DNA of 40,910 bases from a virus (IMGVR_UViG_3300035698_016077:1-40910), one strand, 5' to 3'. Positions 12,684 to 31,526 are shown, counted from the stretch's first letter. The notes: generated by a model not told the origin, from the sequence alone. Numbers and translations: made by a program.

Positions 12684-12911
12684 ATGCGACGAATAAATAT
12701 TCCATTTTGGTTAAAGAAATTCATTAGAAAAATATCAGGTGTTTCGATTTATTCAATTAGGTGCAAGGTATGTGGCGATGAGTTGAGATGGATCACTAAG
12801 GATGATATTAAATTTTTTCATTGTTTTGATTGTAAGACTTGGTATAATACAAAAATAGAACGAGTTATATTCAGGAAAGGGAAAGCGATATGTGTGGAGA
12901 AAATAAAGTAA
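12684..12911 (+). CDS. Small zinc-ribbon protein
   Basis: A 75-residue basic protein with two C-x2-C knuckles, CKVC near residues 27-30 and CFDC near 47-50. The spacing is typical of a zinc ribbon. The N-terminal 25 residues are Lys/Arg-rich and amphipathic. It starts immediately after the nrdJ stop (TAGATG), and its 3' end overlaps the following gene by 22 bases. Nucleic-acid or protein binding is the usual job of such domains, and no specific partner can be inferred. The next gene also begins with a Cys-rich segment, so the two may be related accessory modules. Confidence 0.6.
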   Translation: MRRINIPFWLKKFIRKISGVSIYSIRCKVCGDELRWITKDDIKFFHCFDCKTWYNTKIERVIFRKGKAICVEKIK

Positions 12912-15841
12912 ATAGAAATTCACTCAACAAAGGAAAGACTTGCTGGAATTGCCCCGCTGCAAAACTTCAAGGGAATGTAGACTTTAGAGCTTGCGGTCAA
13001 AGCCTGAATAGCCATGATGACATGGATGGATCTGGCGAAAATTATATAGTCATTGAATGTTCACGAAGAGAAGATTTAGGATTCTTTTCCCCTGACATTA
13101 CTTTCGAAGAATGCTCAGAGTGGGAATTAACAGAATATGGATACATGCTGAAAAATATGCGTGTAATGATTCTTGGAATTGACGGATACTTGGGTTGGCC
13201 TTTAGCATTGAAGCTAGGTAAGCTAGGTTGTGAAGTGTCAGGTGTTGACAATTACAATCGCAGAAAATGGGTCAAAGAAAGAGGAAGTCATACCGTAGTG
13301 CCGATTGAACCGATGACAGAGAGGCTACACGCCGCATCGGAAATGCTGGGCATTAATATAAACTACCGTGAGATGGATATTCTTGACAAAGATAGACTGG
13401 ATGAGTTTATTCAAGAAGTAAAACCAGAAGCTGTAGTTCATTACGCTGAAAATCCTTCCGCTCCCCATTCCATGATTGACTTTGAACATGCCAAGGATTG
13501 CCAGTATAACAATATTATTGGCTCGTTGGGGGTATTGTACTCCGTGAAAGAGAATTGCCCAGAAGCGTCAATTTTGAAGCTTGCAAGCACAGGTGAGTAT
13601 GATAGTCCGGTATCTCAAAGACCACTATTTGAAGGAATGTTCCCAGGTGATGCCATATTAAAATGGAGAAATGAGGAATGGTCCCTTGGTGGTGAAATGG
13701 TTCCTAAAGGCGTAACAAGTCTTTACCATGTTAGCAAAACAGCAGACTCCCAAAATATGTATGCCAGTACTAAGTGGTGGTGGCTAAGAGGTCATAATAT
13801 CTATCAGGGAGTTATCTTCGGCAATTATACTGAAGAGACTGCAATAGACCCACGATTAAGAACCAGAGCAGACATTGATTCGTGTTTTTTGCCCGGTGCA
13901 GAAGTTCTTATGGGTGATGGTACAAAAAGGAATATTGAAGACATAGAAGTTGGAGACAATGTTATATCTCATAAAGGGGTAGAAAAAAAAGTAGAAAAAG
14001 TTTTCAACAGAGAGTCTGAGAGCGACATTTATTCAGTGGATGTATTGGGGGTTCAAAAAAATATTCTTTGTACTGAAAATCATCCTTTTTTGGTGGCGAA
14101 AAAGAACAGAACATTGAGAGATGGAAATAAAAAGGCAGAAATTGGATTTAGTGAATTAGAATGGGTCACGATAAGTGAACTTTCTGATAAATGTCATAGC
14201 TATAGAGGGAGATATTATGACATTGGTAAGAAATACGATTATGCAAAAAAAGAAATTGGAAATGGAAGAAGTTGTTCTGAGATTGCCAGAAAATTAGGGC
14301 TTGACCCGTCTACGGTTCAGAAATGGAAAAATAGAGACACAGCACCAAGAGGGTGTAAAAAGGATAGTTTTGGACTTTATTATTTACTGATACCCAAAAA
14401 CAAGATTAATGATTGCGTTCCCGAGCATTATATAGATTTAAATAAAGAGACATATTATGGGGTATTGGATGGAGACTTTTTGTATTCAGAAAATTCTGTT
14501 GACAACAATAAAAAAGGGTGCAAAAAAGTAAAAAATAAAATTCCTATAAATAAATATTTTTCTAGAGTTATTGGATACTATTTAGCAAAAGGATGTTGTG
14601 ATGATTACCAGACAAGGTTCACGATGGGAATTAATGAAAAAGATGGTTTGGACGATTTAACTAATTCCCTAGATGAATTAGGTATAGAGTATTCTAAAAC
14701 TTATGCCAGAAAAATTTGCAATGTAACTATAAGCTCCAAACCCATTTCATTGTTATTCGGCAAAAATTTTGGGCATGGATGTAGAGAAAAGTGTTTGTCT
14801 TATAAATTTATGAATTTGAGCATTGATAATACCAAAGAAATCATTAAGGCTTATTGGAGAGGTGATGGGAATAAGACTAAAAGGATGTGCTCGTTTAGTT
14901 CTGTTTCTTATGATTTATTGAGTCAAATTAGATTTTTGCTTTTGAGATTTGGAATATTTTCTTATGTTAAGGAATATGACAGAGTTCAAACTCTAGACTT
15001 TTCCTCCGAAGGAAGAGAACCTTATGAGTTTGAAAGCAAAAGAAAAGAACTGATCATCACTGGCAAAAATTTTGATTTGTTCTGTGAAAATGTTATTGAT
15101 TATGAATATGAAGAACAGGGCGTTTGTCAGGACAGAACTTATGATATAGGTGATTATTTCGCACTGAAGATTAACAACATTTTTGTTGATAAAAATTACG
15201 GAAATAAAAATGTAGTTTACAATTTAGAAGTTGAAGAAGATCATTCTTATTGTGTTAATGATGTAGTAGTGCATAATTGTTTTGGAACTATGTTAAACCG
15301 ATGGATCAGTCAGGCTGTAATAGGCCATCCAATCACTGTATATGGAAGCGGAGAGCAGTATAAAGGGTACATCTCTTTGCAGGATGCTATGCAATGCATG
15401 ATTAGGTTGATAGCTTCTCCTCCAGAACCTGGAGAATACTCCTCATTAAATCAGATAAGTGAATACTCTCAAATCAAAGCGTTAGCTCTTAGGATAGCTA
15501 AGATTGCGAAAGAGTTTGGAATCGATGCTAAAGTTGCTCGTTATGAGAATCCTCGCACAGAATCTGAAGTTCCTTTTGAGATGGTATATGAAAGATTGGA
15601 GAAAGAATTTGGATTCAAATCCATCCAATCAGTAGATGATGAAATTAGAAATACATTTCGTTTATTTTTGGAAGATGAAGTGAAGCAACGCATCATTGAA
15701 AAAGAACATATGATTGTTCCCAATGAGAAATGGGATGGAACGAAAAAGAAGAGTGAAGTTCTAGAGTATTTGGAAATAGAAGAAGAAGCTTCAGAAGAAG
15801 ATTTAATAGAAAAAAGATTAGAAGATTTGGGGTATGTGTGA
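12890..15841 (+). CDS. sqdB: UDP-sulfoquinovose synthase-like SDR with intein and Cys-rich N-terminus
   Basis: A 983-residue precursor, 518 after removal of a 465-residue intein. From about residue 90 it follows the SQD1/SqdB family of extended short-chain dehydrogenases, which make UDP-sulfoquinovose from UDP-glucose and sulfite. The NAD site is GIDGYLGW (96-103). Other landmarks are VDNYNRR, the family-like SAPHSMID and NNIIGSLGVL segments, ASTGEY with T234, YHVSK with Y279 and K283, and, after the intein, FGTMLNRW and GHPITVYGSGEQYKGYISLQD. Residues 1-89 are an extra domain with Cys at 2, 18, 21, 35, 57 and 75 (CWNCP, ACGQ, IECSRRED), unlike known SqdB. Exact product specificity is not proven, since related SDRs could accept another donor. 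It overlaps the zinc-ribbon gene and is followed by thioredoxin (TGATG). Confidence 0.8.
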   Translation: MCGENKVNRNSLNKGKTCWNCPAAKLQGNVDFRACGQSLNSHDDMDGSGENYIVIECSRREDLGFFSPDITFEECSEWELTEYGYMLKNMRVMILGIDGYLGWPLALKLGKLGCEVSGVDNYNRRKWVKERGSHTVVPIEPMTERLHAASEMLGININYREMDILDKDRLDEFIQEVKPEAVVHYAENPSAPHSMIDFEHAKDCQYNNIIGSLGVLYSVKENCPEASILKLASTGEYDSPVSQRPLFEGMFPGDAILKWRNEEWSLGGEMVPKGVTSLYHVSKTADSQNMYASTKWWWLRGHNIYQGVIFGNYTEETAIDPRLRTRADIDSCFLPGAEVLMGDGTKRNIEDIEVGDNVISHKGVEKKVEKVFNRESESDIYSVDVLGVQKNILCTENHPFLVAKKNRTLRDGNKKAEIGFSELEWVTISELSDKCHSYRGRYYDIGKKYDYAKKEIGNGRSCSEIARKLGLDPSTVQKWKNRDTAPRGCKKDSFGLYYLLIPKNKINDCVPEHYIDLNKETYYGVLDGDFLYSENSVDNNKKGCKKVKNKIPINKYFSRVIGYYLAKGCCDDYQTRFTMGINEKDGLDDLTNSLDELGIEYSKTYARKICNVTISSKPISLLFGKNFGHGCREKCLSYKFMNLSIDNTKEIIKAYWRGDGNKTKRMCSFSSVSYDLLSQIRFLLLRFGIFSYVKEYDRVQTLDFSSEGREPYEFESKRKELIITGKNFDLFCENVIDYEYEEQGVCQDRTYDIGDYFALKINNIFVDKNYGNKNVVYNLEVEEDHSYCVNDVVVHNCFGTMLNRWISQAVIGHPITVYGSGEQYKGYISLQDAMQCMIRLIASPPEPGEYSSLNQISEYSQIKALALRIAKIAKEFGIDAKVARYENPRTESEVPFEMVYERLEKEFGFKSIQSVDDEIRNTFRLFLEDEVKQRIIEKEHMIVPNEKWDGTKKKSEVLEYLEIEEEASEEDLIEKRLEDLGYV
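13883..15277 (+). mobile_element. Intein in the SqdB-like enzyme, with inserted HTH and degenerate endonuclease
   Basis: A 465-residue intein, precursor residues 332-796, from CFLPGAEVLMGDG to DVVVHN, followed by Cys. Exteins join as R-A-D-I-D-S-C-F-G-T-M-L-N, restoring the family motif. Block B is CTENHPFLV. Near residues 450-485 of the precursor lies a helix-turn-helix (CSEIARKLGLDPSTVQKW). The LAGLIDADG motifs are VIGYYLAKG, where the usual acidic residue is Lys (AAA at 14588), and IIKAYWRGDG, with intact Asp. Splicing looks functional, while endonuclease activity is doubtful. Confidence 0.9.
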
Positions 15842-16146
15842 TGAGCGTAGTAATTTTAACAGATAAGAATTTTTATGATATAATTTTGAATAGTGAGAAA
15901 GCCCTGGTTGAATTTTGGGCTAGTTGGTGTCCTCCATGTAAAATGATGGCACCTATCCTTGAAGACCTATCGAATGAGAACACAGAAGTTATGGTGTGCA
16001 AGGTTAACTCAGATCAGAATCAATACGGTGCTCAGTCTAACAATGTTACTTCTATGCCTACATTCATTTATTACGAAAAAGGTCAAGAGGTTACTAGATT
16101 AGTTGGTGCTCAACCAAAAGCTAAGTTGGAAAAATTGATAAAATGA
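15841..16146 (+). CDS. trxA: Thioredoxin
   Basis: A 101-residue thioredoxin of standard length with the redox motif WCPPC near residues 30-34, the preceding ALVEFWAS strand, KVNSDQNQ, and the cis-proline motif SMPTFIYY. It would act as a cytoplasmic disulfide reductant. The nearby NrdJ has a C-terminal Cys pair that needs such a donor, so supplying ribonucleotide reductase is the likely main job. I place the start at the ATG overlapping the previous stop (TGATG). A GTG three bases earlier is possible. Its own stop overlaps the next start in ATGA. Confidence 0.92.
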   Translation: MSVVILTDKNFYDIILNSEKALVEFWASWCPPCKMMAPILEDLSNENTEVMVCKVNSDQNQYGAQSNNVTSMPTFIYYEKGQEVTRLVGAQPKAKLEKLIK

Positions 16147-16916
16147 AAGCATCGATAATTATAGTAAATTATAACAGACCAGAATATTTGGTGGATTTTG
16201 TATTGTATTCAATACTGAAACAGAAAGTAGACTTTAATTTTGAATTGGTTTTTGTAGATGATGGGTCTAAGAATTCTCCAGATGAACTAATAGAATCCTA
16301 TATAAAAAAAGGGTTAAATATAAAGTATTTTAAAACAGGCAGAGAAGAGGAATCTTCTCCTGCTTACAGTATTAATGTAGGAATTAAGAAATCATTAGGA
16401 GAAGTAATAGTAATTTGTGGTTCAGACGTAATATGGCGTGATCAAATTTTACAGGAATTAGTAGATACTACATACAACAATTCGCTTAAAAAAGTCGTAG
16501 GACCATATGTTTTTGGGTTAAATTACGAATCTAGCCAAATGATCAAAAAAAATAAGAAAAATAATTTATATGATTCTTGTAAACGTGCAAAAACGAATAA
16601 TGTCATAGTATATTCTGGGGGGAAAAAATTTTCAGGATTGCCAATATATTTTTTATGTGCTTATAAAAGGGAGTTATTGTTTAGTGTAGGGGGAATAAAT
16701 GAAAAGTACAAAGTTCCAGGAGCAGAGGACGATGATTTCAATGCCAGATTAGAAGTGTTTGGGTGTAAACCAATTTGGATAAACAGGACAGCTTATCATT
16801 ATTATCATTACAATGAAATTAAAATAAATAACAATTTCAAAAATAGAAAAATATTTAAAAATAGAGACAAAAATAAATATATTGCAAATGAAGGCATTGA
16901 ATGGGGAAAATTATGA
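16143..16916 (+). CDS. GT2-family glycosyltransferase (MKASI paralogue 1)
   Basis: A 257-residue inverting-type GT-A glycosyltransferase. It shows IIIVNYNRPEYL (5-16), LVFVDDGS (35-42), the donor-site motif CGSDVIW (92-98, in the place of D-x-D) and a late EDDDFNARLEVFGCKPIW segment typical of the catalytic-base region. No membrane helix follows, so it is probably a soluble cytoplasmic enzyme. It is one of three close paralogues in the window (with the genes at 16966 and 22227), sharing the MKAS start and the G-x-D-V-I-W and CxPxWI blocks. ATGA coupling ties it to thioredoxin. Sugar specificity is unknown. Confidence 0.82.
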   Translation: MKASIIIVNYNRPEYLVDFVLYSILKQKVDFNFELVFVDDGSKNSPDELIESYIKKGLNIKYFKTGREEESSPAYSINVGIKKSLGEVIVICGSDVIWRDQILQELVDTTYNNSLKKVVGPYVFGLNYESSQMIKKNKKNNLYDSCKRAKTNNVIVYSGGKKFSGLPIYFLCAYKRELLFSVGGINEKYKVPGAEDDDFNARLEVFGCKPIWINRTAYHYYHYNEIKINNNFKNRKIFKNRDKNKYIANEGIEWGKL

Positions 16917-16965
16917 TTCAATTATTCATATTGATTTCAAACATTTCACCTAAAGGACTTAATGA

Positions 16966-17862
16966 ATGAAAGCATCAATAGTTATGAGTAACTTCAATAG
17001 GCCAATACACTTATTGGATGATGTTTTATTTTCGATTTTAAATCAAAAAGTTGATTTTGATTTCGAGATTATTTTCATTGATGACGGATCAGATGAGTCT
17101 CCGTTAAAATTGATAAATTCGTATATCGAGCAAGGGCTTGCAATTAAATTTTACAGAACTTATAATAAAAAAATGACTTCACCGGCTTACGCTTTAAACG
17201 TTGGGATCAAAAAAACCAAAGGAGAAATAATTGTACTTTGTGGAGCAGATGTTATTTGGATAGAGCAAATTCTTCAACCGTTAGTTGACAGTTTCGAGGG
17301 TAAATCCATGGAATATGTGGCTGGATCTACTGTTATCGGATTAAGCCTTAAAGGAAATGAAACACTTAAAAATATATCCAGACAAAAATGGCCAAATATT
17401 TTACATGCAATGAAGTTCATTTCTAAAGAAGGAGAACAGATAAATTTAGATTCTCTTGCTCCTAGATCTCATGTCCCTAGAGAAGATTCAGATTTTCATA
17501 ACGTAAAGTCAAGTCCAAGAAAAATGCGAAAGGCTTTTTCTGGACTTCCTGTTTATTTTTTAAGTGCTTACAGGAGAGAATTGTTGTATGAAGTTAAGGG
17601 GATTAACGAAAAGTTTGAAGAACCTTGTGGAGATGATGACGAGTTTAATAGAAGACTTCAGATATTTGGGTGCATTCCTATGTGGATAGACAAAGTTGCT
17701 CTTCATTACTACCATTATAATGGAGAGGTTCAAGGATATAGACGATCAGATAAAAATGTCCCGTTTCTTAAAGAACAAAATACTAAAAAATATAAAGCAA
17801 ATGTAAAAACTGATTGGGGAATATTGTCGGACAAAAAGGAAACAGATGAGGTCAAAGAATAA
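16966..17862 (+). CDS. GT2-family glycosyltransferase (MKASI paralogue 2)
   Basis: A 298-residue paralogue of the preceding gene: IVMSNFNRPIHL, IIFIDDGSDESP, LCGADVIWIEQIL, FSGLPVYFLSAYRRELL and GDDDEFNRRLQIFGCIPMWI occur in the same order. It has an extra 25-30 residue basic insertion before the FSGLP block compared with paralogue 1. After a 49-base gap with no recognisable element, AAAGGA precedes the ATG. The three paralogues probably transfer different sugars or act at successive positions in one glycan. This is inference from duplication plus divergence. Confidence 0.82.
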   Translation: MKASIVMSNFNRPIHLLDDVLFSILNQKVDFDFEIIFIDDGSDESPLKLINSYIEQGLAIKFYRTYNKKMTSPAYALNVGIKKTKGEIIVLCGADVIWIEQILQPLVDSFEGKSMEYVAGSTVIGLSLKGNETLKNISRQKWPNILHAMKFISKEGEQINLDSLAPRSHVPREDSDFHNVKSSPRKMRKAFSGLPVYFLSAYRRELLYEVKGINEKFEEPCGDDDEFNRRLQIFGCIPMWIDKVALHYYHYNGEVQGYRRSDKNVPFLKEQNTKKYKANVKTDWGILSDKKETDEVKE

Positions 17863-17864
17863 GG

Positions 17865-18689
17865 ATGAAATCAATATTGATATTAGGTGGAGATGGTATG
17901 TTGGGATATCAAATGTTCAAACATCTTTCTAAACGTTATGATGATGTGTATTGCACAATAAGGGGATCATTAGAAGATCTTGAAGAATTTGAAATTTACA
18001 ATGAAGAGAATACATTGGATTCTATTGATTTGTATACAGATTTTAATTTGTTAAAAATAATAGTTAAAGAAAAACAAATTGACACAATCATAAATTGTGC
18101 AGGATTAATAAGGCAAAGAGATAATTTATCGAAATCTATGATGATTTTTATCAATAGTTATTTACCTCATCTTTTAGTGGAAACTTTTAAAGATTGTGTA
18201 ACATTTAATTTTGGTACAGATTGTTACAAAGATGATGATTTTTATGGCAGGACTAAAAATTTGGGAGAAGTTGTAGCTGATAATGCAGTTTTTATTCGTA
18301 GCTCTATTATTGGAAGAGAGATAAAAAACAAGAAGTCTTTTCTAGAATGGATACTGGGTAGCGAAGGAAAGACAATCAAAGGTTACAAAAACTTTATGTA
18401 CAATGGCATTACTACTTTAGAAATGTCTAAGTTTGTGGATTGTGCATTGCGAAATCTAGATAAGTGTAAAGGACAATTTTTTCAAGTAGTAAGCGATCCG
18501 ATTTCTAAATATGATATAGTAGAAAAAGTAATTCGTATTTTTGATATAAAGGGTGTTGTTTTGTTGTCTGATGTGGACGTTGAAGAAGATAAAACTTTAA
18601 TACAATCGAAAACAGTAGATAAGCTCAATTTAGTAGTCCCGTCATGGGAAGAAATGATTCAAAGCGTAAAGGATGATGAAAATGCTTGA
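17865..18689 (+). CDS. fnlB: NAD(P)-dependent sugar reductase, FnlB/WbjC/CapF-like
   Basis: A 274-residue extended SDR of the RmlD class. The cofactor site is ILGGDGMLGYQ (residues 6-16), NCAGLIRQRDN marks the second strand, and YGRTKNLGE supplies the catalytic Tyr and Lys. The RmlD-type ending is shorter than in full CapF, which carries an extra C-terminal cupin-like domain that is missing here. With the two genes that follow it matches the three-enzyme route from UDP-GlcNAc to UDP-N-acetyl-L-fucosamine, where this enzyme reduces the 4-keto intermediate. On sequence alone dTDP-4-dehydrorhamnose reductase is an alternative, but no rhamnose-pathway partners are present. The pathway assignment rests on the neighbours. 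Confidence 0.72.
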   Translation: MKSILILGGDGMLGYQMFKHLSKRYDDVYCTIRGSLEDLEEFEIYNEENTLDSIDLYTDFNLLKIIVKEKQIDTIINCAGLIRQRDNLSKSMMIFINSYLPHLLVETFKDCVTFNFGTDCYKDDDFYGRTKNLGEVVADNAVFIRSSIIGREIKNKKSFLEWILGSEGKTIKGYKNFMYNGITTLEMSKFVDCALRNLDKCKGQFFQVVSDPISKYDIVEKVIRIFDIKGVVLLSDVDVEEDKTLIQSKTVDKLNLVVPSWEEMIQSVKDDENA

Positions 18690-19662
18690 TTTAAATGGAA
18701 AGAAAGTATTGGTAACTGGAGGGACAGGTTCTTTAGGCAAAATTTTATGTAAAACTTTATTGTCTAATTTTTCTCTTGATATGTTGCGTATTATCTCTAG
18801 AGACGAAGCTAAACAATATTTTATGAAAATGGATTTACCTGAAATTGATTATATGATTGGTGATATAAGAGATATAAGATCAGTTGAAAGAGCTATGAGA
18901 GATATAGATGTTGTGTTTAATGCGGCAGCTCTAAAACAAGTCCCTTCCTGTGAAGAGTTCCCATATGAAGCAGTTTGCACTAACGTAAAGGGAGCACAAA
19001 ACATTGTAGATGTAGCTAGTAATTTTAAACCTCAAGTTGTTGTTGGTATATCTACAGATAAAGCGGTGAAGCCTGTCAATGTTATGGGCATGACTAAATC
19101 GATACAGGAAAGAATATTTACCAATGCTAACAAGGCTAATGAGAGTACTAGGTTTATTTGTGTAAGATACGGTAATGTATTGACTTCAAGAGGATCTGTT
19201 ATTCCAGTGTTCATGGAACAATTGAAAAATAATAGGGATATTACTCTAACAACAGAAGATATGACTAGGTTTTTGTTGACATTAGATAGAGCGGTTCAGA
19301 CGGTATTGGACGCTATTAAAATCGCGAATAAGGGAGAAACACTTATCCCTATCATAAAATCTACCAAGGTTATCGATATGGCGAAAACGATGATTGAGAT
19401 ATTTAATCCGAAATCAAACATAGAAATAACAGGTATTAGACCTGGCGAAAAAATACATGAGATATTAGTAAGCGAAGAGGAATGTAACAGGACGTATAAA
19501 GTGTCAGATGATTATTACACTATTCTTCCTGTGAATTTTGAATCAACAAGAGAGATAACTTTCGTTAATTTGGATAAAGAATATTCTTCAAAAGATAATA
19601 TGATGAACGAAGAAGAGTTGAAGCAGTTGATAGCTAACAATAAGTTCGAAGGAACAGAGTAA
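18682..19662 (+). CDS. fnlA: UDP-GlcNAc 4,6-dehydratase (5-inverting), FnlA/WbjB/CapE-like
   Basis: A 326-residue extended SDR. VLVTGGTGSLGK binds NAD. AALKQVPSCEEFPYEA and GISTDKAVKPVN are signature segments of the FlaA1/CapE group. VMGMTKSI shows Met in place of the usual catalytic Tyr of the Y-x3-K motif, a hallmark of the inverting dehydratases. RPGEKIHEIL is the family's C-terminal motif. It would start the UDP-L-FucNAc route. The frame is open to 18673, but I prefer the ATG at 18682 because AAAGGA (18668-18673) is then correctly spaced. It overlaps fnlB by eight bases. Confidence 0.83.
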   Translation: MLDLNGKKVLVTGGTGSLGKILCKTLLSNFSLDMLRIISRDEAKQYFMKMDLPEIDYMIGDIRDIRSVERAMRDIDVVFNAAALKQVPSCEEFPYEAVCTNVKGAQNIVDVASNFKPQVVVGISTDKAVKPVNVMGMTKSIQERIFTNANKANESTRFICVRYGNVLTSRGSVIPVFMEQLKNNRDITLTTEDMTRFLLTLDRAVQTVLDAIKIANKGETLIPIIKSTKVIDMAKTMIEIFNPKSNIEITGIRPGEKIHEILVSEEECNRTYKVSDDYYTILPVNFESTREITFVNLDKEYSSKDNMMNEEELKQLIANNKFEGTE

Positions 19663-19663
19663 C

Positions 19664-20743: not shown

Positions 20744-20758
20744 AAAGGTTGGGATATA

Positions 20759-21662: not shown

Positions 21663-21663
21663 A

Positions 21664-24006: not shown

Positions 24007-24938
24007 AAATATTATGGCTTTCAATTGATAGATCTAGTAGAGTAGCAAAAATATTTGATCCTCTTCAAGAAGAAATTTGTAAAATTTCTGAAACTGAAAT
24101 TATGAAAGTTAAGCTTCCGTGTCAACCAGGTAAATGGCAAAGAGAATATAGAGAAAGAGATATGCCCAAAAGACTAGATATTGATTACGTTAACCAATTT
24201 GATACGGTCATTGTTGATGCACCATTTGCGTATAGAGATGATAATTGGAAAGACATAAAAGCAAAGAAGGTAATGATAGTAGAAGATTATCATGGTATGG
24301 TTCCTGAATTCACTAAGATATATTCAGATAATGGTTTTGAAACTTTCTTTTATCGCTATCAAGGATTTAAAAAATCGCATACTCATGTTAGTCATAGGAA
24401 CTTGGTGTGGTTTCCTCACAGTTTTGATCCAAATGTGATAAAGGATTATGGATTAAAAAAAGAAAATGATGCCCTGATGGTTGGAAGAATAGATAAATAT
24501 TTTTATCCGTTAAGGAACATGATAGTGAATAAATTAAACGGTAAATCATACTTCAGAAAAGTTAAAAGACCAGAAGATGGATCTGATAAGGCTTGGCCAG
24601 TAGGCTCTGATTATGGGAAATTATTGAATCAAAGTAAGATATCTTTTTGCTGTGTTAGTAGGTTTGATTATTCGTTACTTAAATTCATGGAAATTCCAGG
24701 TTGTAATTGTTTATTGTTCGGGGAAGTAACCAAACAAATAAGAGATTTAGGATTCATTCCAGGAGAAAATATGATAGAGATGAAACAGGGCAATGATATA
24801 CCTGATCTTGTTGAGTATTGGTTGGAAAGAGATGAAGAAAGAGAAGTAATATCTAGAAGAGGATATGAAATGGTGCAAAGTAAACATACGGCCAAGATAA
24901 GAGCAAAAGAATTATTGAAAGAATTGGAAAAAATATGA
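24003..24938 (+). CDS. GT-B glycosyltransferase, CgeB-like
   Basis: A 311-residue protein resembling CgeB and related GT-B enzymes. The N-terminal half has alternating strands (MKILWLSIDRS, DTVIVDAPFAYRDD, KVMIVEDYHGM). The C-terminal half has VWFPHSFDPNVI, DALMVGRID, the SKISFCCVSRFDYSLLKFMEIPG donor-binding region with its conserved Glu, and GFIPGENMIEM. The start is TTG, overlapping the previous TGA, with GAGG upstream. No other start gives a complete first strand. Its stop overlaps a small remnant gene. Substrates are unknown. Confidence 0.75.
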   Translation: MKILWLSIDRSSRVAKIFDPLQEEICKISETEIMKVKLPCQPGKWQREYRERDMPKRLDIDYVNQFDTVIVDAPFAYRDDNWKDIKAKKVMIVEDYHGMVPEFTKIYSDNGFETFFYRYQGFKKSHTHVSHRNLVWFPHSFDPNVIKDYGLKKENDALMVGRIDKYFYPLRNMIVNKLNGKSYFRKVKRPEDGSDKAWPVGSDYGKLLNQSKISFCCVSRFDYSLLKFMEIPGCNCLLFGEVTKQIRDLGFIPGENMIEMKQGNDIPDLVEYWLERDEEREVISRRGYEMVQSKHTAKIRAKELLKELEKI

Positions 24939-25075
24939 ACTTTGTATATGCAGTAGATCACAAACATAAATTTATATGGTACAGGGCAATCAATAAGGTA
25001 AGGAAATATTGGAGAATGAATGAAGACAAAAATAATGTTCTTCCACAAAAGACTTCCATAGACATTGAAAAATAA
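24935..25075 (+). pseudogene. Truncated sulfotransferase paralogue
   Basis: A 46-codon frame starting in the ATGA overlap. Its first 22 residues (MNFVYAVDHKHKF, then IWYRAINKV) match the start of the intact sulfotransferase at 26372 (MNLTYAIDHKNKF, then VWYRITKV) nearly residue for residue. The similarity then stops at the phosphate-binding A-S-S-S segment, and 24 unrelated Lys/Asn-rich residues follow. No 3'-phosphate-binding motif is present. I read it as the leftover 5' end of a second copy after an internal or 3' deletion. It might still be translated, but cannot be an active sulfotransferase. Confidence 0.7.
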
Positions 25076-25089
25076 TAGGAGAAAATAAA

Positions 25090-25641
25090 ATGCCAACTTC
25101 TTTTCCTCAAGCTTTAGAAGAGATATGTATAGCCATGATAAAAAATAAACCTAAAAGCGTTCTTGACATAGGCACAGGTTTTGGAAAGTTAGGATTTTTA
25201 GCTAGAGAGTACTGTGATGTATGGGGAGGTAAGAATTGGAACGGAGAAAAATTTGAGTTTAAGACTAATATTGTTGGCATAGAATTCTTTGAAAAGTATA
25301 TAACATCTTTACATAAAATGATATACAATAAAATTCACATTGGAGATTGCGCATCCATTATTGATGAACTTGGAAATTTTGATATGATATTTTTTTGTGA
25401 TGTACTTGAACACTTACCAAGAAAAGATGGATATAAAGTTTTGCAATGGATAAAAGACAATACAAATATGGTATCTTTTGTTGTTACTCCAGTTAATTTA
25501 GGGAAACTAAATCAAAGGCAAAATGGTAAGTATGGAAACAAACGAGAGGCGCACATCACTCAATGGTCTAGAGAAGATTTAGAAAAATTTGGAAATGTTA
25601 AATCAAAAAATAATCAAAATATTTTGATAATAGGAAAGTAG
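25090..25641 (+). CDS. Class I SAM-dependent methyltransferase
   Basis: A 183-residue methyltransferase not closely similar to the one at 21664. SVLDIGTGFGKLGFLA (23-38) is motif I, NIVGIEFFEKYI holds the acidic ribose-binding residue, DMIFFCDVLEHLPRKDG is motif IV, and FVVTPVNLG follows. A 14-base gap after the sulfotransferase remnant contains TAGGAG, a good ribosome site. The sequence between the strands includes an insert (WGGKNWNGEKFEF) seen in sugar- and small-molecule methyltransferases. The target is unknown. Confidence 0.8.
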   Translation: MPTSFPQALEEICIAMIKNKPKSVLDIGTGFGKLGFLAREYCDVWGGKNWNGEKFEFKTNIVGIEFFEKYITSLHKMIYNKIHIGDCASIIDELGNFDMIFFCDVLEHLPRKDGYKVLQWIKDNTNMVSFVVTPVNLGKLNQRQNGKYGNKREAHITQWSREDLEKFGNVKSKNNQNILIIGK

Positions 25642-25651
25642 GTATAATGAA

Positions 25652-26371
25652 ATGTTAAATGCTTGGTCATATTGGGAAGATAGTCCGTCAACAAAAAAAT
25701 CAGAATATTTAGATTTATGTTTTGAACTCATAGAAAAACATTGCAGCAGAGATTTCAACATAATACTATTAAATAAATATACTATATATGATTATTTACC
25801 AGATTTGCCAGACGCAGTTATGAATATGAAAAAATTAGCGCATAAAGCAGATTATATCAGATATGAGCTACTCTATAGATATGGTGGGATGTGGATAGAT
25901 AATGATACAATAGTAATGCAACCATTGACTGAAATATTAGGTAATTTAGATAAAAATAAATTCGTTTCTTGGACAAGAAATGAGGGAGAGCCAACACCTG
26001 CATTTTTAGTTTCAGTCCCTAAGCATCCAATGTTATTGAGTCATGTACAAGAATCTAGAAAACTAGTTTCTTCTGGCAATTATAGACCATCAATTTGGGC
26101 AGGATTAGGTGGAGATATTTTATTTAAATATAGCAAAAAATATGATTGGTATCAGTATGGGCCTGAACGTTTTGCTCCTGTACGTGCAAAAGATAAGAAA
26201 AAGTTTTTTTCTATCGATATAAATGAAAATATATTGCCTAAAGACGCTTTAACGGTGTGCTTGTTCAATAATGGATTTCCTGATTGGTTTAAGTCGATGA
26301 GTAAAGAAGAAATTTTACAAAAAGATTTTTTGATTAGTAAATTTTTCAGAAGGTCTTTGGAGGAATTGTAG
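25652..26371 (+). CDS. GT32/capsular-type glycosyltransferase
   Basis: A 239-residue enzyme of the capsular-polysaccharide DXD class. MLNAWSYWEDSP opens it. KADYIRYELLYRYGG followed by MWIDNDTI gives the family's classic block, with the metal-binding D-N-D at 83-85. AGLGGDILF lies near residue 150. It is shorter than the GT32-like gene at 23050 and only distantly similar. The TATAAT three bases before the start is not a credible promoter for it, and the ribosome site is weak (AGGT). It is followed directly by the sulfotransferase, with GGAGG inside its 3' end. Confidence 0.78.
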   Translation: MLNAWSYWEDSPSTKKSEYLDLCFELIEKHCSRDFNIILLNKYTIYDYLPDLPDAVMNMKKLAHKADYIRYELLYRYGGMWIDNDTIVMQPLTEILGNLDKNKFVSWTRNEGEPTPAFLVSVPKHPMLLSHVQESRKLVSSGNYRPSIWAGLGGDILFKYSKKYDWYQYGPERFAPVRAKDKKKFFSIDINENILPKDALTVCLFNNGFPDWFKSMSKEEILQKDFLISKFFRRSLEEL

Positions 26372-26974
26372 ATGAATCTAACTTATGCAATAGATCATAA
26401 AAATAAATTTGTATGGTATAGAATAACTAAAGTTGCTTCATCTAGCATATTGAGAGCGTTGATACAAAATAGCAGTTTGGATGAACAAAAAAATAGAATT
26501 AATAAACCAATCGATTTCATTTTTAAAGGAGATGATTTCAATGAAAGCACCAAAGACTATTATAGATTTGCTTTTGTTAGGAACCCATGGGATAGATTAG
26601 TTTCTTGTTATTCGAACAAGATAAATGGCCATGGTGGAGCTAAATTAGTGTTTTATAAGAATTGTTTCAATAGAAATTTCAAACACTTTGTAAAGTTTGT
26701 GTCAAAACAAGATGTAAATTCAAAAATAGAAAGGCATATAAAATCTCAAACCAGTATGATGAGATTTAAATCTGTGAATGGAATTTATCGTTTTGAAAAT
26801 TTAAGTGATGAATTTGATAGATTGTGTGATGATGTAAATATAAGAAAAGTTAAATTACCTCATAGAGTAAAATCAGAACACAAACATTATAGAGAATACT
26901 ATGATAGTGAAAGTATTGAACTTGTTGCGAAAATTTATGCAAATGATATTAAAAATTTCGGATATGAGTTTTAG
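26372..26974 (+). CDS. PAPS-dependent sulfotransferase
   Basis: A 200-residue sulfotransferase of the carbohydrate (Sulfotransfer_2) type. WYRITKVASSSIL (residues 15-27) is the 5'-phosphosulfate loop, with K20 and the Ser cluster. YRFAFVRNPWDRLVSCY (64-80) is the 3'-phosphate-binding motif with R70 and S78. YRFENLSDEF lies near residue 133. Such enzymes move sulfate from PAPS to a hydroxyl on a glycan. Eukaryotic relatives are Golgi-anchored, but this one has no membrane helix and would act in the cytoplasm. PAPS must come from the host, as no synthesis gene is visible. A truncated copy lies at 24935. Confidence 0.82.
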   Translation: MNLTYAIDHKNKFVWYRITKVASSSILRALIQNSSLDEQKNRINKPIDFIFKGDDFNESTKDYYRFAFVRNPWDRLVSCYSNKINGHGGAKLVFYKNCFNRNFKHFVKFVSKQDVNSKIERHIKSQTSMMRFKSVNGIYRFENLSDEFDRLCDDVNIRKVKLPHRVKSEHKHYREYYDSESIELVAKIYANDIKNFGYEF

Positions 26975-27622
26975 ATGAAGCAAGTAAATAAATTAATATT
27001 CACACATACAACTGGCAGGAGTGGAACTGCTTACTTGTCACGACTGTTTATGGTTGGTCACGAACCAAATCCAAATTTTTGGTCATTAATGAGAATGTTG
27101 GCAGAAGGCAAACAAAATAGCTTTGTCAAGACATGGCTAGTAAATAAGAAAATCCCGTCAATGTTAAATAATGAAAGTGTCTTTAATCATACTTATATGG
27201 AGACTTCTCATTTTTGTTGTAAGGGATTTTTAAGTATGATCATAGATGAGTTTGATGGAGAAATTAAAGTCATTAGATTAAGAAGAAATAAGAACGATGT
27301 AATTGATAGTTTGGTAAGATTGAAATCAATGGAAATAGCTACAAAAAGTTATTTAATCGGAACTGATGATATATGTATAAATAAAGTAGAAGATAACAAA
27401 TGGAAAAACATGAACTTAAATGATAAGAGTTCTTGGTATGTGGATGAAATAGAGAGTCAGTGGATAGAGGTAGTTAAGCCAAAGCTGAATGACGAAAACA
27501 TATTTGAAGTTGATCTTTATGATATTCAAAAGTATAATTGTACATTGAAAGATCTTGAAAATTTTGTAGGCAAAAAAGCAGATAGATTAGTGATTGGAAA
27601 AAAGATGAACACAAAACAATGA
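26975..27622 (+). CDS. Second sulfotransferase-fold protein
   Basis: A 215-residue P-loop protein. LIFTHTTGRSGTAYLSRLF (7-25) is a 5'-phosphosulfate loop of the T-G-R-S-G-T type, and VIRLRRNKNDVIDSLVRL near 98-115 matches the 3'-phosphate-binding region, with Arg in place. It is not closely similar to the neighbour at 26372, so the two probably have different acceptors. A nucleotide-binding kinase is the main alternative, but no second kinase motif is seen. It starts right after the previous stop (TAGATG), and its stop overlaps the next start in ATGA. Confidence 0.68.
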   Translation: MKQVNKLIFTHTTGRSGTAYLSRLFMVGHEPNPNFWSLMRMLAEGKQNSFVKTWLVNKKIPSMLNNESVFNHTYMETSHFCCKGFLSMIIDEFDGEIKVIRLRRNKNDVIDSLVRLKSMEIATKSYLIGTDDICINKVEDNKWKNMNLNDKSSWYVDEIESQWIEVVKPKLNDENIFEVDLYDIQKYNCTLKDLENFVGKKADRLVIGKKMNTKQ

Positions 27623-28485
27623 AAGACATAGCATTTGTAATTGTCACAATAAGAGATTTCAAGGTAGCCAACGCATGCATTGATTCTATAAAAACTCATT
27701 CTAAAGATTTGTCTTATGATATATATATATTGTTCAATGGTATTCCTTTGCCAGATAAAATACCAGAAGACGTAATAGTGAAGAGACTGGATAAGATGAA
27801 GTATCCAAGTGGTGCGAAATTGTATATGGAAGATTTTTTGTGCGATAAATCGTATAAATATATTTTCATGTTAGATGATGACATAGAGATTGTAGATGAG
27901 GGTTCTAAAAAACTTTTTGATTTTATGGAAAGCAATGAAACCGTAGGGCTATGCAGTGGAAGCACAAAGGATCATGGGTCAAGCAAGATTAGGTCAGGTG
28001 GACAATTAATTGTAGATGATTATTTTCTTCTTCGTAAAAAATGGGAAAATGGAGGAAGTAAAGGATTCAGAGAGACTCCTTTTGTAATAGGTGGCTACTA
28101 CATAATGAGAAATAGTATTTTAAAAAATGGGGTGAGAAGTGATGACAACATTTCTTACGGATTTTGGGATATAGATTTACCAATGTCTGTCGCTAAAGCA
28201 GGATACAAAATAGGAGTATATTCTAAAGCCACGTCAATACACAGAAGGCTTGTTAAGCCAAATCAAGAATCTGAAAAGATCAGAAAACTTCAGTGGAGAA
28301 ATAGGAAAAATTATGGAAATTCAGCAATATATTTTTACAAGAAATGGGGATTGATCCCTTATTGTGGTGGAGTCTTGTTTACAGGCAATATTGGGTTAAG
28401 TATAAATAGGGACGGGAAAGACAAAATAAAGAAAACATTTGACAATTGGAAGAAAAAATACGATTTAGAATTGGATAGCAAATGA
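27619..28485 (+). CDS. GT2-type glycosyltransferase (KDIAF paralogue 1)
   Basis: A 288-residue GT-A enzyme, the first of four tandem paralogues. KDIAFVIVTIRDFKVANAC (2-20) is the opening strand and helix, YDIYILFNG the second strand, and FMLDDDIEI with D86-D88 the metal site. FVIGGYYIMR and SYGFWDIDLPMSVAKAGY hold the probable acceptor and base region. KATSIHRR supplies a late His. Compared with the MKASI set it lacks VDDGS, so it belongs to a different GT2 branch. It has no membrane helix. ATGA overlaps join it to both neighbours. Confidence 0.82.
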   Translation: MKDIAFVIVTIRDFKVANACIDSIKTHSKDLSYDIYILFNGIPLPDKIPEDVIVKRLDKMKYPSGAKLYMEDFLCDKSYKYIFMLDDDIEIVDEGSKKLFDFMESNETVGLCSGSTKDHGSSKIRSGGQLIVDDYFLLRKKWENGGSKGFRETPFVIGGYYIMRNSILKNGVRSDDNISYGFWDIDLPMSVAKAGYKIGVYSKATSIHRRLVKPNQESEKIRKLQWRNRKNYGNSAIYFYKKWGLIPYCGGVLFTGNIGLSINRDGKDKIKKTFDNWKKKYDLELDSK

Positions 28486-29312
28486 AAAATATAGCATTTG
28501 TTATAGTAACTATCAGGGATTTTGAAGTGGCAAAGGCTTGCATAGAATCAATAAAAGATAACGTAGGAAATTTGTCTTATGATATATATGTATTATTTAA
28601 CGGAATCGATATACCAGAATGTATTCCAGATGATGTAATATCTATGAAATTAAATAAGAGAATGTATCCTAGTGGTGCCAGAAAACATATGGAAATGTTT
28701 TTATCTGACAAGCCATACAAATACATTTTTATGTTGGATGATGACATAGAGGCAATGGAAAATGGTCCTTTGAGATTGTTCAGGTTCATGGAAAATAATG
28801 ATGATGTTGGGATGTGCAGTGGAACCACCACAGAACATGGAGATGGACGTGTTAGATCTGGGTGTAAACTTTTGGTTTCAAAAGATAAAATGAACAAAAA
28901 AAGATGGAACAAAAATGACGAAAGAAAATTTAGAGATACACCATTCGTTGTAGGTGGGTATTACATAATTAGAAAATCTATAATAGAATCTGGAGTTTTG
29001 AGTGATGATAATATCTCTTTTGGGTTTTGGGATATAGATCTGCCAATTACGGTAGCTAAATCTGGGTATAGGGTAGGAGTTTTTGTTAGAGCAAAATCTT
29101 TACATAGAAGAATGGTAAATAAAAAACATAACTCAGAAAATATTAGGGAGAACAATTGGAGGACTAGAAGTAATTATAGGAATTCAGCGATATATTTTTA
29201 CAATAAATGGGGTTTATTACCTAGTGATGATTTTAAAAGATTTAAGAAAAGTATAAATTTTGGAAAAATAACTGATACAGCAAAAAATATAGAAAGTTAT
29301 TTTAATATTTGA
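28482..29312 (+). CDS. GT2-type glycosyltransferase (KDIAF paralogue 2)
   Basis: A 276-residue protein, the closest paralogue of the gene before it. KNIAFVIVTIRDFEVAKAC, YDIYVLFNG, FMLDDDIEA, FVVGGYYIIRKS, SFGFWDIDLPITVAKSGY and SLHRRMV align without large gaps, and the MYPSGARKHME segment matches KYPSGAKLYME. The C-terminus is about a dozen residues shorter. Such close tandem copies point to a recent duplication followed by divergence, probably for a different donor or acceptor. Confidence 0.82.
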   Translation: MKNIAFVIVTIRDFEVAKACIESIKDNVGNLSYDIYVLFNGIDIPECIPDDVISMKLNKRMYPSGARKHMEMFLSDKPYKYIFMLDDDIEAMENGPLRLFRFMENNDDVGMCSGTTTEHGDGRVRSGCKLLVSKDKMNKKRWNKNDERKFRDTPFVVGGYYIIRKSIIESGVLSDDNISFGFWDIDLPITVAKSGYRVGVFVRAKSLHRRMVNKKHNSENIRENNWRTRSNYRNSAIYFYNKWGLLPSDDFKRFKKSINFGKITDTAKNIESYFNI

Positions 29313-29341
29313 TTTGTTTGAAAAATTTTAGGAGTAACGCG

Positions 29342-30211
29342 GTGAAAGATATAGCATTTTACATAACCACAATTAGAAAGTTCAAAGTTTTATCATCAAC
29401 TATTGGGTCTATAATAGAACATTGTAGCAATTTTGACTACGATATATATATTCTATATAATGGAATAGAAGAGAACAAAAAAGTTAAAAAGAATTATCCT
29501 AATGTAATTTCGTTAACCAATAAAAATTTTGTCACCACTTGTGCAAAAGGAAGAGAAATACTTGAGAGCCATATCGTAAATCAAAATACAAAATATAAAT
29601 ACATGTTTAGTTTAGATGATGATATGGAATTGAAATATGAATGCGTTAGTGATATGTATAATATCATGGAAGATGATAACGATATAGGCATATGCGGTGG
29701 AACGTATATTAGAATTAAAGATAATAAATTTCCTCATTTTGGACACAAGGAAATAACTTGTGGAGATAATATAGTTGGGTATGAGGCATTGGAAAGAGGA
29801 AATTCAAACGTGAGGGAGAGTGCCTATTCTCCAGGTGGAATATCTATGATTAGGGCAGAGCTGATATACGAAGGAGTTAGAACCGATGGGAGGTATCCTG
29901 CTGGTTTTTCTGATATAGATTTGTCAAAACAAGTAAAAGCTAAAAAAATGAAAGTAGTTATGGCTCCAAATGCTAACGCAATTCATAGGAAAACTCCTGG
30001 ACTTGGAAGATGGAGAACCAAAGACAATATAGCAAAATCTGTGGCTTTATTCGCTAAAAAATGGAAAGAATATCCGGCTAATGAAAATTGGTTCAAATCT
30101 GCGTTTAATGAGTTTAAGAGATTCGATTTGAATACTGGTAATGGTAGGGAAAATACGATTAAGAAAATAGATGAGTGGATAAAAATTTATTGGGATGGTT
30201 CAGATGATTGA
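29342..30211 (+). CDS. GT2-type glycosyltransferase (KDIAF paralogue 3)
   Basis: I choose the GTG at 29342 because GGAG stands seven bases upstream and the protein then begins KDIAFYITTIRKFKV, aligned with its paralogues. The frame is open to a TTG at 29309, which lacks a ribosome site and adds 11 unmatched residues. The 289-residue protein has YDIYILYNG, FSLDDDMEL, an AYSPGGISMIR block in place of GGYYIMR, FSDIDLSKQVKA and NAIHRKTPG. It is more diverged than copies 1 and 2. It overlaps copy 4 by 17 bases. Confidence 0.8.
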   Translation: MKDIAFYITTIRKFKVLSSTIGSIIEHCSNFDYDIYILYNGIEENKKVKKNYPNVISLTNKNFVTTCAKGREILESHIVNQNTKYKYMFSLDDDMELKYECVSDMYNIMEDDNDIGICGGTYIRIKDNKFPHFGHKEITCGDNIVGYEALERGNSNVRESAYSPGGISMIRAELIYEGVRTDGRYPAGFSDIDLSKQVKAKKMKVVMAPNANAIHRKTPGLGRWRTKDNIAKSVALFAKKWKEYPANENWFKSAFNEFKRFDLNTGNGRENTIKKIDEWIKIYWDGSDD

Positions 30212-31526
30212 TCTTAAAAAAAATAATGAAAATAATAAAAAGGATATAGCTGTTTCAATCGTTACCGTTAGAGACGTAGACGCATGTAAAGCAGCGGTTG
30301 ATTCCGTGAAAAGATATAGCGATGGGTTCACATATGATATATTCATATTGGTGATGACAAAAGATAAAAATAGGGTATCTAAGTTTAAGAGTACGTTTTC
30401 TAAATATGAAGATGTTAATTTAATTTTTAATGAAAAAACTATGTGGTGTTCAGAAGCTAGGAATTTTCTTGATGAAATAATCGTCGAAAAAGAGTATGAT
30501 TATGTGCTTGGTTTGGACGATGATATGGAAATAGTTGGAAATGCTATCATTACGTTGAAGAATGTTTTGGACAAAAATAAAGACATAGGAATATGTGGAG
30601 GGGCATTTAGTAACTATCCATTGACTTGTTTTGATAAAAGAGGCACATTAGGCAATATGGATGAAGAATTTTTAAACTTAGAAAGAGTTAAAGGTACAGA
30701 TCCAATAGTTGATGTGTATTTAGTGCCTGGTGGATTTTATCTAATAAGAAACAGCTTAATGAAATTAGGATGTAAAAATGATCCAAAAATGATCTACGGA
30801 TATTCAGACGTTGATTTGACTATATCAGTATTGAAAACAGGGTTTAGGGCTGTATCTGTTTTTCTCGCAAAAGGTATTCACAGAAGAAAAACTCACGATA
30901 AAAACAGTAAAGACTCTCACAGAGGAAAGGTTTGGAGAACACATAAAAATCTAGAAAAAACAACAGTTGAGTTTTATAATAAATGGGGAATAAATTTATG
31001 TGGAGGGTTATTTCCTAAAGGAGATAAAGCGATAGAAGACAAATCATTATTAAGAAAAAAAATGAAACAGTTATTGTTAAAATACGGTTATGAAGATAGG
31101 GCTTGTTGTTTAATTTTTGATGATGTAAAATCTAATTTCATAAATAAATCGGTAGAATTATATTTAGAAAGTTATGATTATGTTATGTTGGTGTTTTTGG
31201 GGTTTGAAGAAAATTCTATCAAAGAAGCAAAAAAAGATAACAATACTGGAACCAGGGTAAGAAAAGGTAAAGCAGTAAGATCCGTAATAACTCCTCAAAG
31301 ATTGAAAAGGAACGCATTAAAGTGCACCGTTAAGCCATGTTATAATTTTATGTATGAAAACGAAAAGATCATTAATGTGATGTTTCTAAAAAATAAGATT
31401 GATGTTGATAAATGTAAAAGCATAATATTGAAGGATCATGAACGCGATAGTAGTACGGTAGATTTTTTCGCGTGTAATTATGATAGTGATTATGAAGAAA
31501 ATATCAAGTTAGGTAAAAAAATATGA
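30195..31526 (+). CDS. GT2-type glycosyltransferase (KDIAF paralogue 4) with extra C-terminal domain
   Basis: A 443-residue protein. Residues 14-285 are a fourth KDIA-type copy: KKDIAVSIVTVRDVDACKA, YDIFILVMT, LGLDDDMEIV, VPGGFYLIRNS, YGYSDVDLTISVLKTGF and GIHRRKTHD. A further 150 residues have no counterpart in copies 1-3. They are basic in places (TRVRKGKAVRSVITPQRLKR) and contain C-x-V-x-P-C. I do not recognise this domain; it could bind an acceptor or be a second small enzyme. Two starts are possible (30195 and 30204), and neither has a strong ribosome site. It is the last gene of the island. Confidence 0.78.
   Translation: MVQMIDLKKNNENNKKDIAVSIVTVRDVDACKAAVDSVKRYSDGFTYDIFILVMTKDKNRVSKFKSTFSKYEDVNLIFNEKTMWCSEARNFLDEIIVEKEYDYVLGLDDDMEIVGNAIITLKNVLDKNKDIGICGGAFSNYPLTCFDKRGTLGNMDEEFLNLERVKGTDPIVDVYLVPGGFYLIRNSLMKLGCKNDPKMIYGYSDVDLTISVLKTGFRAVSVFLAKGIHRRKTHDKNSKDSHRGKVWRTHKNLEKTTVEFYNKWGINLCGGLFPKGDKAIEDKSLLRKKMKQLLLKYGYEDRACCLIFDDVKSNFINKSVELYLESYDYVMLVFLGFEENSIKEAKKDNNTGTRVRKGKAVRSVITPQRLKRNALKCTVKPCYNFMYENEKIINVMFLKNKIDVDKCKSIILKDHERDSSTVDFFACNYDSDYEENIKLGKKI

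Follow-up and report, generated by a model that had tools for sequence, protein, structure and literature searches.

The giant viruses Moumouvirus australiensis and Cotonvirus encode a three-enzyme UDP-6-deoxy-L-HexNAc pathway together with a sulfotransferase, an APS kinase, and glycosyltransferases (PMC10117803). The giant-virus pathway to L-RhaNAc and L-QuiNAc employs a 270-aa reductase (PMC10117803, PMC9614988). Mycobacteriophages encode glycosyltransferases that decorate capsid and tail subunits of the virion (Freeman et al. 2023, as cited in PMC12619734). For a Mu-like virus from the Cariaco Basin, a virus-encoded UDP-sulfoquinovose synthase has been reported (PMC7785012). Giant-virus glycan clusters with the three-enzyme pathway and a sulfotransferase, phage virion glycosylation (as far as the citing review covers it), and a viral SqdB homologue are already known. 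The initial annotation of the present locus named no described phage system combining these functions; the view that comparable viral systems are lacking is not supported, given the giant viruses (PMC10117803) and the Mu-like virus (PMC7785012). The authors of the Agl3 study call it unknown how UDP-glucose acquires sulfur at C6 in vivo (PMC4388408).

Here, we describe a glycan island in a bacteriophage contig, the surprising part of which is a module of a SqdB homologue and a thioredoxin. Near-complete rare amino-sugar pathways and sulfation appear to be carried by bacteriophages and not only by giant viruses, and with the conserved SqdB-thioredoxin module, the in vivo route of sulfur to C6 of UDP-glucose can now be tested.

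Genomic context and layout of the island

IMGVR_UViG_3300035698_016077:1-40910 is a linear IMG/VR virus record of 40,910 bases from an uncultured bacterial virus. This whole stretch, hereafter called the window, is probably a fragment. It has the look of a lytic phage with its genes on one strand, and no integrase or other lysogeny gene was seen in the window. The island (12684-31526, about 19 kb) is preceded by a likely tail-fibre ORF and genes for RecA, DnaB, primase, an SSB-like protein, and an intein-containing ribonucleotide reductase (RNR), and is followed by genes for an amidase endolysin, a PD-(D/E)XK exonuclease, and an intein-containing PHP-type DnaE. The island is real and phage-borne, located between the phage RNR and the phage lysis and replication genes. 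It contains 21 ORFs, all on the + strand and mostly overlapping or abutting, with a coding fraction of 98.4%, as expected from the earlier description of about 19 kb of consecutive, overlapping genes. Synonymous codon usage in the island correlates with that in the flanks at 0.95, and the GC content is slightly lower in the island (0.32 versus 0.36). The codon correlation, the coding density, and the contiguous + strand genes speak against a chimeric insert, and together with the replication, RNR, and endolysin genes that flank the island on the same strand they bear out the earlier assignment of this segment to phage DNA.

The island encodes ten glycosyltransferase-like ORFs, two methyltransferases, one PF03567 sulfotransferase with a remnant of another, and a cassette of a reductase, a 4,6-dehydratase, and a 2-epimerase. 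These family matches agree with the functions in glycan assembly that had been proposed. The features are as follows.

2-1171, +: likely tail-fibre ORF with repeats
1171-1815, +: GT8-like glycosyltransferase candidate outside the island (weak PF01501 match, E 0.016)
12684-12911, +: zinc-ribbon-like protein, 75 aa (PF13453 E 0.0045, under the cut-off)
12890-13156, +: five-Cys N-terminal domain (CWNC..RACGQ..EC.RR..EEC) fused to the SqdB homologue, conserved across the subfamily
13157-13882, +: SqdB-like N-extein, NAD-binding half (SQD1 E 1e-62 over both halves; NF041015)
13883-15277, +: intein with a LAGLIDADG domain, Cys1, and C-terminal HN/C junction (PF14890, PF05203, PF14528, TIGR01443/1445)
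15278-15841, +: SqdB-like C-extein (sequence match)
15838-16146, +: thioredoxin (CPPC), overlapping the SqdB gene (PF00085 E 8e-29); the pair also occurs in cellular genomes
16143-16916, +: glycosyltransferase family 2, set A (PF00535 E 1.2e-17)
16966-17862, +: glycosyltransferase family 2, set A (PF00535 E 1.8e-17)
17865-18689, +: RmlD-like 4-reductase, 274 aa, predicted UDP-6-deoxy-L-HexNAc pathway (PF01370/RmlD; 30-33% identical to Aminicenantia cassette reductases)
18673-19662, +: CapE/FnlA/Mg534-like UDP-GlcNAc 4,6-dehydratase/5-epimerase, TDK..MxxxK (PF02719 E 2.5e-90)
19664-20743, +: WecB/WbvD-like UDP-HexNAc 2-epimerase (PF02350 E 8e-93; TIGR00236 over the cut-off)
20759-20935, +: radical SAM gene, N-terminal part with CxxxCxxC, in another frame (break at an A9 tract)
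20937-21662, +: STM4011-like radical SAM/SPASM protein, C-terminal part (NF038073 E 1.8e-19)
21664-22230, +: SAM-dependent methyltransferase (PF08241 E 1.2e-7)
22227-23069, +: glycosyltransferase family 2, set A (PF00535 E 8e-17)
23050-24006, +: Caps_synth / DXD sugar-binding glycosyltransferase (PF05704 E 6.5e-9)
24003-24938, +: GT-B glycosyltransferase, Glyco_trans_1_2 (PF13524 E 4e-16)
24935-25075, +: sulfotransferase N-terminus remnant (translation like the start of the 26372 ORF)
25090-25641, +: SAM-dependent methyltransferase (PF13489 E 5.6e-7)
25652-26371, +: Caps_synth / Gly_transf_sug glycosyltransferase (PF05704 E 2.8e-12)
26372-26974, +: PAPS-dependent sulfotransferase (PF03567 E 1.7e-20; phrog_3347 E 1.7e-19)
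26975-27622, +: possible second sulfotransferase (motif TGRSGTAYL only)
27619-28485, +: GT2-like glycosyltransferase, set B (PF00535 E 5e-4; alignment with invariant LDDD)
28482-29312, +: GT2-like glycosyltransferase, set B (60% identical to the 27619 ORF)
29309-30211, +: GT2-like glycosyltransferase, set B (paralogue comparison)
30195-31526, +: GT2-like glycosyltransferase, set B, with a C-terminal extension (paralogue comparison)
31616-31945, past the island and before the endolysin: degenerate thioredoxin-like protein with one active-site Cys only (CPEH)

Several of these had been overlooked earlier, namely the SqdB intein (13883-15277), the five-Cys domain, the thioredoxin at 15838, the degenerate thioredoxin at 31616, and an eleventh glycosyltransferase-like gene at 1171-1815. 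The start codon of the latter overlaps the stop codon of the tail-fibre ORF (2-1171), and the two genes are a candidate pair of acceptor and dedicated transferase. The 41-kb contig holds three inteins, in RNR (9420-12683), the SqdB homologue (12890-15841), and DnaE (33909-38498).

No close phage relatives were found among the viral contigs with the whole SqdB protein, two alignments of glycosyltransferase paralogues, or an alignment of the SqdB subfamily as queries. The DnaE relatives reach 37% identity at best, and their loci have no noteworthy genes in common with the island. Signals of the host differ. The phage is placed beside Omnitrophota sequences in the SqdB tree (support 94/90, long branch), whereas the 2-epimerase is nearest to Aminicenantia among the three groups searched (58% versus 40-42% identity).

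Sugar-nucleotide cassette

The dehydratase at 18673 matches Staphylococcus aureus CapE (E 6e-68) and Megavirus Mg534 (4tqg; E 1e-53). Its STDKA..MGMTK segment aligns with STDKA..MGISK of CapE, and MxxxK replaces YxxxK in both proteins. The 2-epimerase at 19664 scores 266.8 bits against TIGR00236 (cut-off 210). The reductase at 17865 matches nothing in the S. aureus cap locus and did not retrieve CapF from the PDB. The same order of reductase, dehydratase, and epimerase is found in two Aminicenantia loci (L250 and L251), with identities of 30-33%, 49-53%, and 56-58%, respectively.

These family matches bear out the three-gene sugar-nucleotide cassette (17865, 18673, and 19664) proposed in the initial annotation. 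Its assignment to a UDP-6-deoxy-L-HexNAc pathway of the WbvB-WbvR-WbvD or Mg534-536 type is well supported by the gene families, because the cassette has a dehydratase with TDK and MxxxK, a short RmlD-like reductase, and a 2-epimerase of the WecB/WbvD family. The fit also sustains the expectation of an amino-sugar glycan. The three enzymes would convert host UDP-GlcNAc to UDP-6-deoxy-L-HexNAc, with good grounds for predicting UDP-L-RhaNAc and then UDP-L-QuiNAc as the most likely products. UDP-L-FucNAc, the product of CapE-CapF-CapG and FnlABC, was also considered and became less likely, because the 274-aa reductase does not resemble CapF, which has about 370 aa.

SqdB homologue

The SqdB homologue matches NF041015 (E 1e-103) in two stretches with 347 bits (cut-off 575), interrupted by the intein. 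Its nearest solved structure by sequence is SQD1 (E 1e-62), and the SqdB-like nature of the enzyme claimed before is evident from both matches. The intein occupies residues 332-796, with Cys1 and HN/C at its junctions, and lies at a conserved SqdB site. An intein within a sugar-nucleotide enzyme is unusual. The in-frame position of the intein at this conserved site speaks for maintenance of the enzyme.

Ten proteins from genome contigs, retrieved with a SqdB alignment, are 57-66% identical, and the next matches drop to 45%. In the tree, this subfamily including the phage protein forms a clade with support of 100/100 and a branch length of 1.19, in which the phage branch is long. Members occur in Chloroflexota, Gemmatimonadota, Aminicenantes, Omnitrophota, Thermoplasmatota, Asgard archaea, and other archaea. 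By these alignments, the SqdB homologue is a member of a distinct subfamily that is scattered over several archaeal and bacterial phyla. For one cellular member (L024), a model built from 21 sequences has a pLDDT of 77 and a pTM of 0.83, and SQD1 is the closest structure by a wide margin (1qrr, E 2e-33).

In Agl3, the H95A, R101A, M145A, Y182A, and K186A mutants are inactive (PMC4388408). Tyr182 and Lys186 (YxxxK) are kept in the phage protein and the subfamily. Arg101, the arginine of EQRSAP, is Pro in the phage and in all 21 of the 21 subfamily members; this replacement is also common among other SqdB-like proteins. Met145 is Thr in the phage and Met or Leu in the cellular subfamily. Because of the substitutions at positions 101 and 145, the phage enzyme should not be filed as a UDP-sulfoquinovose synthase. 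The earlier reading that it places sulfur on the sugar is not supported on these grounds, nor by its place in a separate subfamily. The homologue may nevertheless work like the synthase, in that a UDP-sugar would be oxidized at C4, a 5,6-ene formed by dehydration, and sulfur added at C6.

Cys-domain SqdB and thioredoxin in cellular genomes

The five-Cys domain has no match in the PDB, and a search with this domain alone retrieved it almost only fused to SqdB. There are eight clear matches and a weak, broken one in 227 genomes of the Lokiarchaeota phylum; the domain was also found in 1 of 400 Chloroflexota, 2 of 398 genomes of the Geothermarchaeum phylum, 4 of 285 Omnitrophota, and 5 of 142 genomes of the Aminicenantes class. 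Sequence downstream of the gene is available in 21 of the 23 genomes with the subfamily. A thioredoxin gene overlaps the subfamily SqdB gene or sits within about 80 bases of it in 19 of these 21 testable genomes, which were chosen without regard to thioredoxin and span bacteria and archaea, the loci being related so that the counts are not independent. Both exceptions lack an intact Cys domain: the protein at L026 is devoid of it, and that at L215 has lost RACGQ and has CRNC for CWNC. At canonical SqdB loci, no thioredoxin was found within 300 bases (0 of 70).

Directly upstream, 13 genomes have a PF01663 phosphodiesterase gene, and four more have one at most 3 kb downstream. The trio of phosphodiesterase, Cys-domain SqdB, and thioredoxin is common to archaea and bacteria (L024-L033 and L207-L219), with a different gene order in one Aminicenantes clade. 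The phage keeps the Cys domain, SqdB, and thioredoxin without the phosphodiesterase. Near the module, an Omnitrophota glycan locus (L029) encodes a PF00685 sulfotransferase as well as a fusion of a pyruvate-kinase barrel with an ATP-sulfurylase-like domain (5311-6861), and another locus (L030) has ATP sulfurylase and APS kinase. Among the viral contigs searched, no other virus turned up with the SqdB-thioredoxin pair, and a search of open-access literature yielded no description of the module.

The Cys domain, served by the thioredoxin, would be the sulfur or redox partner of the SqdB homologue. The fused enzyme would then produce a UDP-sugar altered at C6, with a 6-sulfo or another 6-sulfur sugar nucleotide as the likeliest product. 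With low confidence, we suggest that the pair is an unrecognized two-protein sulfur-sugar synthase, often accompanied by the PF01663 gene in archaea and bacteria, in which C6 of the UDP-hexose 5,6-ene would receive a sulfur species from the thioredoxin-recharged Cys domain, in place of free sulfite bound at Arg101. The phage would have captured this pair for a sulfur-bearing 6-deoxy-L-HexNAc glycan on its virion. The subfamily enzyme, which travels with its own thioredoxin, may show how sulfur joins sugars.

Glycosyltransferases and modifying enzymes

The ten glycosyltransferase-like ORFs fall into four types, consistent with the earlier count: three GT2, four of a GT2-like set, two Caps_synth/Gly_transf_sug, and one GT-B (PF13524). 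The GT2 proteins of set A (16143, 16966, and 22227) match PF00535 at E about 1e-17 and are 42-46% identical to each other. Those of set B (27619, 28482, 29309, and 30195) each match PF00535 weakly (E 1e-4 to 0.02) and have no match in the PDB, and their membership is based on these matches and on clear mutual paralogy (E 1e-27 to 1e-114, 30-60% identity). Judging from the paralogy, both sets are expansions by duplication.

Two sulfotransferases plus a remnant had been claimed. The 26372 ORF is confirmed as one by its PF03567 score (74.6 bits versus a cut-off of 22) and has the 3'-PB motif RNPWDR..S, while the PDB yielded nothing meaningful for it; the remnant at 24935-25075 was likewise confirmed. 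The 26975 ORF has a PAPS-loop-like TGRSGTAYL motif but no match in Pfam, PHROGs, the PDB, or phages, and AlphaFold run on the sequence alone gave an uninformative model (pLDDT 33), so that the second sulfotransferase is a candidate by motif only. No gene for making PAPS was found in the window. The PF08241 and PF13489 matches confirm both methyltransferases. The radical SAM gene is STM4011-like, as had been thought, but it is not intact: the frame changes at an A9 tract, and the CxxxCxxC motif and the body, which share one frame in an intact member of the radical SAM/SPASM STM4011 family, are in different frames. The split at 20759-21662 might reflect decay, a homopolymer error, or slippage. 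The broken frame and the sulfotransferase remnant indicate that decay may be under way in part of the island.

No island protein has a TM-like segment (maximum Kyte-Doolittle mean of 1.6 over 19 residues), and the island ORFs include no initiating or lipid-carrier transferase, flippase, polymerase, ligase, oligosaccharyltransferase, or membrane protein.

Related viral loci

Among 50,697 phage records, the uncultured huge phage LR745206 (634,780 bp) is the only one with homologues of both the dehydratase and the reductase. Its glycan island of about 15 kb (L184, LR745206.1 412000-458000) contains glycosyltransferases, methyltransferases, the dehydratase, and the reductase. In IMG/VR, the reductase was found in 15 contigs, and in several of them it is accompanied by glycosyltransferases and either the dehydratase or the 2-epimerase. 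Viral neighbourhoods with homologous genes are recovered as combinations of the reductase and the dehydratase, or of the reductase and the 2-epimerase, with glycosyltransferases in IMG/VR and LR745206. GT2 genes over the cut-off are present in 16 of the 22 viral records bearing SqdB, the reductase, or the sulfotransferase. Sulfotransferases of the PF03567 type occur in at least 446 viral contigs, and at 50 of the 80 best loci more than one lies within about 10 kb, some beside glycosyltransferases. Phage glycan islands with sulfotransferases recur.

Some environmental viral contigs carry up to seven sulfotransferase genes in about 20 kb, in part interleaved with glycosyltransferases (L269, L290, L291, L310, and others). 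In four viral contigs (L017-L020), a ribonucleotide reductase gene follows closely downstream of a SqdB homologue. Cassette matches in 'Staphylococcus phage SA 1298/1306 Kay' were discarded, as they look like host cap-locus DNA inside phage records. A record labelled Staphylococcus phage (L185, OR849864.1) contains an apparent host capsule locus with CapE and CapG homologues and is probably bacterial DNA.

Proposed function

Homology shows the capacity to make precursors, to transfer glycosyl and methyl groups, and, with one enzyme, to sulfate. We propose, at roughly even confidence, that the island is a phage glycan-assembly operon that would draw on host UDP-GlcNAc for UDP-6-deoxy-L-HexNAc, add a sugar altered at C6 by the SqdB homologue, and build a cytoplasmic chain capped with methyl and sulfate groups on a virion protein. 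Ten soluble glycosyltransferases would assemble the chain in the cytoplasm, with caps added by both methyltransferases and by one or more PAPS-dependent sulfotransferases. Most simply, a virion protein such as the tail fibre encoded nearby would itself be the site of glycan assembly. Because the island has no convincing TM segment and no lipid-carrier transferase, flippase, polymerase, or ligase, cytoplasmic assembly and a virion-protein acceptor are favoured, and the glycosyltransferase-like gene at 1171, which abuts the likely tail-fibre ORF, fits such an acceptor. The island thus probably coats one of the phage's own proteins with a sulfated glycan. The window is a 41-kb linear fragment, so that carrier and export genes could lie elsewhere, or the host could supply them.

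The initial annotation had left the choice between a virion coat and the host surface, and the missing lipid-carrier, flippase, and ligase genes favour the virion. A capsule, LPS, or S-layer glycan might instead be added or altered through the host lipid carrier and flippase, blocking other phages or hiding infected cells. Surface-polysaccharide-type loci (L029, L250, and L251) do hold the nearest cellular relatives of the cassette and the SqdB-thioredoxin module. We consider such remodelling rather unlikely, as the island is also devoid of an initiating transferase, a polymerase, and a membrane-anchored protein, and the window shows no lysogeny gene. Serotype conversion is typically a trait of temperate phages. 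Decoration of modified bases by the glycosyltransferases and the sulfotransferase against restriction appears improbable. DNA is a frequent target of phage glycosyltransferases (reviewed in PMC12619734), and the island adjoins RNR and replication genes, but no base hydroxymethylase, thymidylate-synthase homologue, or TET/JBP oxygenase was seen in the window, no DNA-glycosyltransferase family was matched in Pfam or PHROGs, and ten glycosyltransferases with a dedicated 6-deoxy-HexNAc pathway exceed the needs of base modification. It is also very unlikely that the island is a captured bacterial polysaccharide locus, now unused, or part of a chimeric contig. The broken radical SAM frame, the sulfotransferase remnant, and the lower GC content would fit this explanation, whereas the uninterrupted phage genes on one strand on both sides, the codon correlation, the 98% coding density, and the in-frame SqdB intein with further inteins in RNR and DnaE do not.

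For the SqdB step, an ordinary UDP-sulfoquinovose synthase that provides the phage with sulfoquinovose is somewhat unlikely. SQD1 is the nearest enzyme by sequence and, for the cellular member, by predicted fold, and Tyr182 and Lys186 are kept. The R101P replacement across the subfamily, M145T in the phage, and the extra Cys domain with its thioredoxin partner, absent from canonical loci, argue against such a synthase, although R101P is also frequent in other SqdB-like proteins.

Comparison with known systems

The LR745206 island is likewise a + strand run of about 15 kb with a dehydratase, a reductase, and several glycosyltransferases, but its cassette genes are not adjacent, and no homologue of the 2-epimerase, sulfotransferase, or SqdB of the window was found in that stretch. 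To our knowledge, sulfation has not been described in mycobacteriophage virion glycosylation. As far as the citing review describes it, that system also differs in having few glycosyltransferases and no sugar-nucleotide pathway. The Mu-like virus from the Cariaco Basin also encodes a SqdB homologue, as a lone gene for which no glycan operon was described (PMC7785012).

The clusters of Moumouvirus australiensis and Cotonvirus japonicus are similar in bringing together a 4,6-dehydratase/5-epimerase, a 4-reductase of about 270 aa, a 2-epimerase, a sulfotransferase, and glycosyltransferases (PMC10117803). They differ in that these eukaryotic giant viruses coat capsid fibrils and encode an APS kinase (PMC10117803). 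The SqdB-thioredoxin pair is not listed for their clusters (PMC10117803), whereas the bacteriophage described here has it together with ten glycosyltransferases. The UDP-L-RhaNAc/UDP-L-QuiNAc pathway of Megavirus chilensis (Mg534-Mg536) uses the same three families with the same sizes (PMC9614988); the phage order of reductase, dehydratase, and epimerase differs from it, and the phage product is predicted from the genes. The SqdB homologue resembles SQD1 and Agl3 in the SDR fold, the NAD site, and Tyr182/Lys186 (PMC4388408). Unlike these enzymes, it has Pro at position 101, Thr at position 145, a five-Cys domain, an intein, and an adjacent thioredoxin.
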